The translations under genes were made by a program, and so were the position numbers. Under the pieces are notes generated by a model. That model saw only the letters and a program-made list of their open reading frames with translations. It had not been told where the DNA came from and ran no database searches. A DNA stretch of 64,000 nucleotides from Sphingorhabdus sp. Alg239-R122 (GTDB taxonomy: Bacteria > Pseudomonadota > Alphaproteobacteria > Sphingomonadales > Sphingomonadaceae): contig NZ_UNRC01000004.1 in assembly GCF_900537065.1 (NCBI RefSeq), positions 1 through 64,000 of the forward strand, written 5' to 3'. Below, in pieces: positions 9,705 to 9,856 of this stretch (its first letter is position 1; every line of letters begins with the position of its first letter).

Positions 9705-9856
9705 GAGTCCTCACATGCGTCAGGTCAAGCGCCTTAACCTGCAGGAATCCTCGCAAAATGTAATTGGAAATTGAGAACGAAGTGAGTCCAAATCGACATA
9801 TGGAGTCTTTTCAGCGCGTGCAGACTCCATATCTGGTGGTGTGGCGCAGAGGACTC
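9705..9856. promoter_or_regulatory. cluster of six GANTC methylation sites in the ccrM leader
   Basis: Within 152 bases between rnhB and ccrM I count GANTC at 9705-9709, 9745-9749, 9784-9788, 9803-9807, 9823-9827 and 9852-9856. A four-base-specific site is expected about once per 256 bases, so fewer than one would be expected here. In Caulobacter the ccrM promoter/leader carries GANTC sites whose methylation represses it, giving feedback. A single TTAACC half-site (9734-9739) could be a weak CtrA-like element. Confidence 0.75.
9798..9832. promoter_or_regulatory. 11-bp perfect inverted repeat containing two GANTC sites
   Basis: ATATGGAGTCT (9798-9808) and AGACTCCATAT (9822-9832) form a perfect dyad separated by 13 bases. 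Each arm contains one GANTC site. There is no T-run after it on either strand, so it does not look like a terminator. An operator for a dimeric regulator, or a methylation-sensitive structure, fits better. It lies 131 bases upstream of the ccrM start codon. Confidence 0.65.

Follow-up and report, generated by a model that had tools for sequence, protein, structure and literature searches.

What is the function of the six GANTC sites (starting at 9705, 9745, 9784, 9803, 9823 and 9852) that crowd into positions 9705-9856 of the window, the whole 64,000-nucleotide stretch analysed here? All six fall within the 213 bp (9668-9880) that separate the minus-strand genes rnhB and ccrM. The CcrM enzyme has been conserved widely, and several Alphaproteobacteria cannot live without it. 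The gene that follows the cluster encodes a genuine CcrM, in agreement with the first-pass annotation: its product carries Pfam N6_N4_Mtase and RAMA domains and matches the CcrM structure PDB 6pbd with an E-value of 1.9e-155. We propose, with a probability of about 0.7, that the cluster forms a composite region for the control of ccrM, centred on an operator for the regulator NrdR into which CcrM sites are built.

The positions of the six sites were given correctly by the first-pass annotation, and its estimate of about 0.6 sites expected by chance was too high. The window is depleted in GANTC, with 74 sites against 217 expected from dinucleotide shuffles, and at its own rate 152 bp should contain 0.17 sites, the probability of at least six being 3e-8. 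Outside the cluster, at most two GANTC occur in any other 152-bp stretch. Since the window is poor in GANTC, the cluster is rarer than was claimed. Pattern searches of the 2.5-Mb genome found about 30 places with three GANTC within 75 bp, so clustering alone is not unique to ccrM; the spacing pattern present at ccrM occurs a single time in the genome. Another grouping, five GANTC in 76 bp (G000:C11:20158-20233; L197:2659-2734), lies between the divergent hemE and DUF299/PPRP-like genes, which is where the replication origin is placed in genomes of the Caulobacter type.

The six sites are distributed over several elements. One belongs to a TTGAC-N14-GANTC block that recurs across the class and is the predicted core promoter of ccrM, from which transcription would start near 9692. 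In relatives, this core usually has a second GANTC between TTGAC and the distal GANTC, and the window keeps one of the two. Four sites form an upstream module, GAGTC-N24-GAGTC-N15-GACTC-N14-GACTC, and the remaining one (9745) lies between the module and the core promoter. The word leader in the earlier description thus holds only in part, as five of the six sites are upstream of the predicted -35.

Table. Features of the rnhB-ccrM region (window coordinates; predicted elements are indicated as such).
Feature	Position	Strand	Basis or remark
ccrM, GANTC adenine methyltransferase	8513..9667	-	ATG at 9667
GANTC, -10 side of core promoter	9705..9709		TTGAC-N14-GANTC kept in relatives and class
TTGAC, predicted -35 of ccrM promoter	9724..9728	-	sequence conservation
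Spacer GANTC, module to core promoter	9745..9749		position not strictly conserved
Outer site 4, GACTC and conserved TTCGTTC	9775..9788	-	conservation in relatives
NrdR box B (predicted), ACTCCATATGTCGATT	9791..9806	-	inner edge overlaps GANTC 9803-9807
GANTC site 3, inner edge of box B	9803..9807
GANTC site 2, inner edge of box A	9823..9827
NrdR box A (predicted), CCACCAGATATGGAGT	9824..9839	-	33 bp from box B, start to start
Outer site 1, GANTC 9852-9856 and conserved CCACACC 9838-9844	9838..9856	-
rnhB, ribonuclease HII, upstream neighbour	9881..10519	-	module persists without rnhB

We compared 56 loci, taken from relatives and from the window's own genome, and found that the GANTC positions in the ccrM gap are fixed even where rnhB is not upstream. 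Enrichment in GANTC is kept upstream of ccrM in nearly all relatives; the outcome that the first-pass annotation named as refuting its view, related genomes free of such enrichment, did not occur. The number of sites varies from 2 to 11 per 250 bp; what is conserved instead is their spacing and their flanks, namely CCACACC, ATRTYGAGTC and TTCGTTC in Sphingomonadaceae, the family being assigned via named relatives. A loose form of the array was found in 235 of 397 family genomes, the few matches that lack the flanks being probably due to chance, and the strict array occurs exactly once per genome, at ccrM, in 20 of the 59 genomes searched. Given this single occurrence, the array was rejected as a general motif of the GcrA regulon. 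In many Alphaproteobacteria (L085, L114, L119, L126, L144 and others) a further GATTC or GAATC is present some 13-15 bp upstream of TTGAC, suggesting that the ccrM promoter may originally have carried three GANTC in phase.

The inner part of the module is a dyad whose half-site, CAASATRTYGAGTC, resembles the NrdR box, with consensus acaCwAtATaTwGtgt. Strict matches to this consensus are almost absent from the nrdA promoters of the family, and a learned motif with paired spacing was needed. We derived such a palindromic motif, seeded with the consensus, from the nrdA promoters of 17 family genomes; as no ccrM sequence entered the training, its application to the dyad is not circular. With this motif the dyad came out as the best pair of the entire locus in 79 of 83 ccrM loci, including that of the window; in all 80 named loci, a set that shares a few genomes with the 83, the best pair fell just upstream of ccrM. 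On the named loci, palindromic motifs with permuted columns gave a mean of 18.9 and a maximum of 75, and the real motif at other spacings gave 33-67. The paired boxes are 31-33 bp apart from start to start, corresponding to spacers of 15-17 bp (17 bp in the window) and to box centres separated by about three helical turns. NrdR proteins bind at box spacers of 14-17 (or 24-27) bp (PMC12051234), and the ccrM spacers fall inside this range. The match in the window itself is moderate, with a pair score of 16.9 and departures at the w positions 5 and 12.

NrdR operators at ribonucleotide reductase genes share this layout, in which 15-17 bp separate two 16-bp palindromes whose centres are three turns apart, and the motif is the same as in the family's own nrdA promoters. 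Two differences are apparent: at ccrM the operator is placed upstream of the predicted promoter and does not cover it, and CcrM sites form the inner edges of its boxes, whereas none of the nrdA boxes listed has a GANTC at the inner edge. Since the boxes are located upstream of the promoter, repression is not certain, and activation by NrdR or a partner is possible. Our search, which covered a library of papers, retrieved none linking NrdR with ccrM; a computational prediction may exist in regulon databases such as RegPrecise.

If the module is an NrdR operator, genomes devoid of nrdR provide a natural experiment. In the window's genome nrdR is encoded at G000:C8:35530-35955, whereas 21 of the 397 genomes of the family lack it. 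The nearly complete genomes among these are mainly nine of genus g7 (G008, G265, G326, G374, G412, G477, G500, G521 and G540) and two of g20 (G021 and G270). Ten loci from these nearly complete genomes were scored, and none has the box pair (maximum 3.6, median -0.9), the TTGAC-GANTC-GANTC core being intact. The median pair score of 49 nrdR-containing loci is 16.9 (Mann-Whitney P of 7e-6 against the nrdR-lacking loci, a value that ignores relatedness, the losses being two independent events). The one g7 genome that has nrdR, G446, keeps the module with a score of 16.5. These are the only two lineages with independent loss of nrdR, and in both the operator has gone with the gene; the class sample holds few complete genomes that lack nrdR and carry ccrM. 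Some loci depart from this pattern. In three incomplete or fragmented assemblies (G020, G027 and G548) nrdR was not detected and the module is present, and nrdR may simply be unassembled there. The module is absent from L019, L026 and L040, which have nrdR. One nrdR-lacking genome, G008, still encodes the large subunit of ribonucleotide reductase. Collectively, the boxes, their spacing, their helical phasing and their loss along with nrdR are apparent from sequence comparison, and NrdR control of ccrM is well supported on these grounds.

The position of the module relative to the promoter is also constrained. Among 83 modules, TTGAC lies 69-70, 77-80, 89-91 or 100 bp away and at no other distance; in the named loci the distances are 67-68, 78-81 and 87-90 bp. 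A tree of the adjoining CcrM N-termini implies about 14 changes of distance class, indicating that indels of roughly one helical turn became fixed repeatedly and intermediate lengths did not. A 10.5-bp phasing among the GANTC sites themselves was rejected, because their distances of 29, 20 and 19 lose register along the module; phasing is thus claimed solely for the module relative to the core. The inverted repeat ATATGGAGTC/GACTCCATAT, with perfect 10-bp arms in the window, could in principle form an RNA hairpin or a cruciform. However, the identity of the inner dyad arms is 0.555 within genomes and 0.560 between shuffled genomes, so that covariation is lacking, and the base adjoining GAGTC pairs in just 22% of modules. 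An Rfam search returned no family above threshold. Furthermore, the module is upstream of the predicted promoter, is helically phased with the core and persists without rnhB, and we regard such a structure as very improbable. Since distances change by helical turns and the stem does not covary, the module seems to act as DNA and not as RNA, the best reading being a DNA element that contacts the promoter in phase.

Could the GANTC sites act without NrdR? GcrA, which is encoded in the window's genome and in all 58 relatives searched, binds methylated GANTC best (PMC3667746), and a GANTC of the core promoter adjoins the -10/-35 region. Several GcrA molecules on a phased, methylation-dependent array might then activate or block sigma70 polymerase at ccrM, in the manner of GcrA targets in Caulobacter. 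Nevertheless, this seems unlikely as the whole explanation: the conserved bases reach well beyond GANTC and form NrdR palindromes, and in some loci the boxes are kept without the inner GANTC. Moreover, the nrdR-lacking genomes G008 and G021 have GcrA and retain only the core; as GcrA is present throughout the relatives, it does not explain loss of the module. At the core promoter, however, GcrA could well be active. This promoter resembles GcrA/CcrM-dependent sigma70 promoters in having TTGAC and a GANTC at the -10 side in a GcrA-encoding genome, with the difference that, of the two core sites, the window retains just the one on the -10 side.

The other rival is the one favoured by the first-pass annotation, in which full methylation of several GANTC represses ccrM as in Caulobacter and more sites give a stronger or more graded response. 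In Caulobacter, methylation of the GANTC sites belonging to ccrM itself most probably regulates the gene (PMC3973325), and GANTC sites are likewise found in the ccrM promoter region here and are conserved in relatives. On the other hand, the Caulobacter promoter is activated by CtrA and repressed by methylation, whereas the window has a conserved upstream module linked to NrdR. It is the spacing and flanks that are conserved, not the site number from which a graded response was deduced, and the four module sites vanish with nrdR, contrary to what a pure methylation count predicts. We consider this reading slightly less probable still than GcrA alone, and the earlier interpretation is, overall, partly supported: the conserved GANTC enrichment bears it out, but the idea of six sites as a stronger or graded form of the Caulobacter feedback finds no support.

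Sites for two other regulators were noted in relatives. Between module and core, 34 of 76 relatives have a CtrA half-site, TTAACCAT, which always precedes TTGAC by either 27-29 or 38-39 bp, two positions one turn apart; the window has a degenerate version with no clear copy. In 45 of 76 relatives (L007, L011 and L156, for example) a perfect copy of the DnaA box (TGTGGATAA or its complement) is found just beyond the distal GANTC of the core; its usual position, TTGAC+28, covers the expected start of transcription. This box is absent in the window's genus.

NrdR-like boxes extend beyond the family. For 17 of 21 loci from other families of the order (0.9 expected) and 32 of 68 class loci (4.2 expected; permuted-column motifs gave a mean of 7 and a maximum of 16), the best such box of the whole locus is one that directly precedes ccrM. 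Presence in other families and in about half of the class sample suggests that the link between NrdR and ccrM may be old. Several class loci have perfect palindromes, such as ACACAAGATATTGTGT, and 12 of the 16 class boxes with a recognisable core are placed 53-54, 63 or 73-74 bp from TTGAC. In the order's other families (L033, L038, L039, L041, L043-L045 and L050), NrdR-like boxes such as GCACTAGATGTTGTGG are found within the 3' coding part of rnhB, where the DNA motif stays and the encoded amino acids change.

We now return to the NrdR operator and to the CcrM sites built into it. The inner end of each box is GAGT and the next base is C, which places a GANTC at the box edge. In each box, the NrdR of Streptomyces touches conserved G:C pairs that are separated by nine bases from one to the next (PMC9110341). 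By our own alignment these pairs would correspond to box positions 4 and 13, position 13 being the G of GANTC; the adenine methylated by CcrM would therefore adjoin an NrdR contact. In the 80 named loci the inner-edge GANTC is present in both boxes of 50, in one box of 24 and in neither of 6, and the box appears to be the primary constraint, with GANTC as a favoured overlay.

High dATP turns NrdR into a DNA-binding tetramer (PMC9110341). Two 16-bp boxes held on a fixed helical face upstream of the TTGAC-N14-GANTC core could thus let dATP-loaded NrdR lower ccrM together with ribonucleotide reductase once synthesis stops, and in S phase, as dNTPs are consumed, NrdR would release the ccrM operator. 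Passage of the fork would leave the box edges hemimethylated until CcrM restores methylation and, if methylation alters the affinity of NrdR, this would close a feedback loop on ccrM. We infer repression of ccrM by NrdR and this cell-cycle timing and, less firmly, that methylation state gates NrdR binding. That the operator works as an NrdR switch gated by methylation, with ccrM as an AND gate for nucleotide supply (dATP) and replication state, is a tentative proposal that we hold to be somewhat doubtful; NrdR binding would then report the dATP level and also whether the fork has gone by. If true, no earlier NrdR operator would have been epigenetically tuned, and dNTPs would be linked directly to methylation in the alphaproteobacterial cell cycle. 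The embedded GANTC makes methylation-tuned NrdR binding directly testable on a short DNA fragment. An NrdR operator at ccrM would join the dATP sensor of ribonucleotide reductase to cell-cycle DNA methylation, which suggests that in these cells methylation of the DNA is coupled not only to replication but also to the supply of nucleotides.
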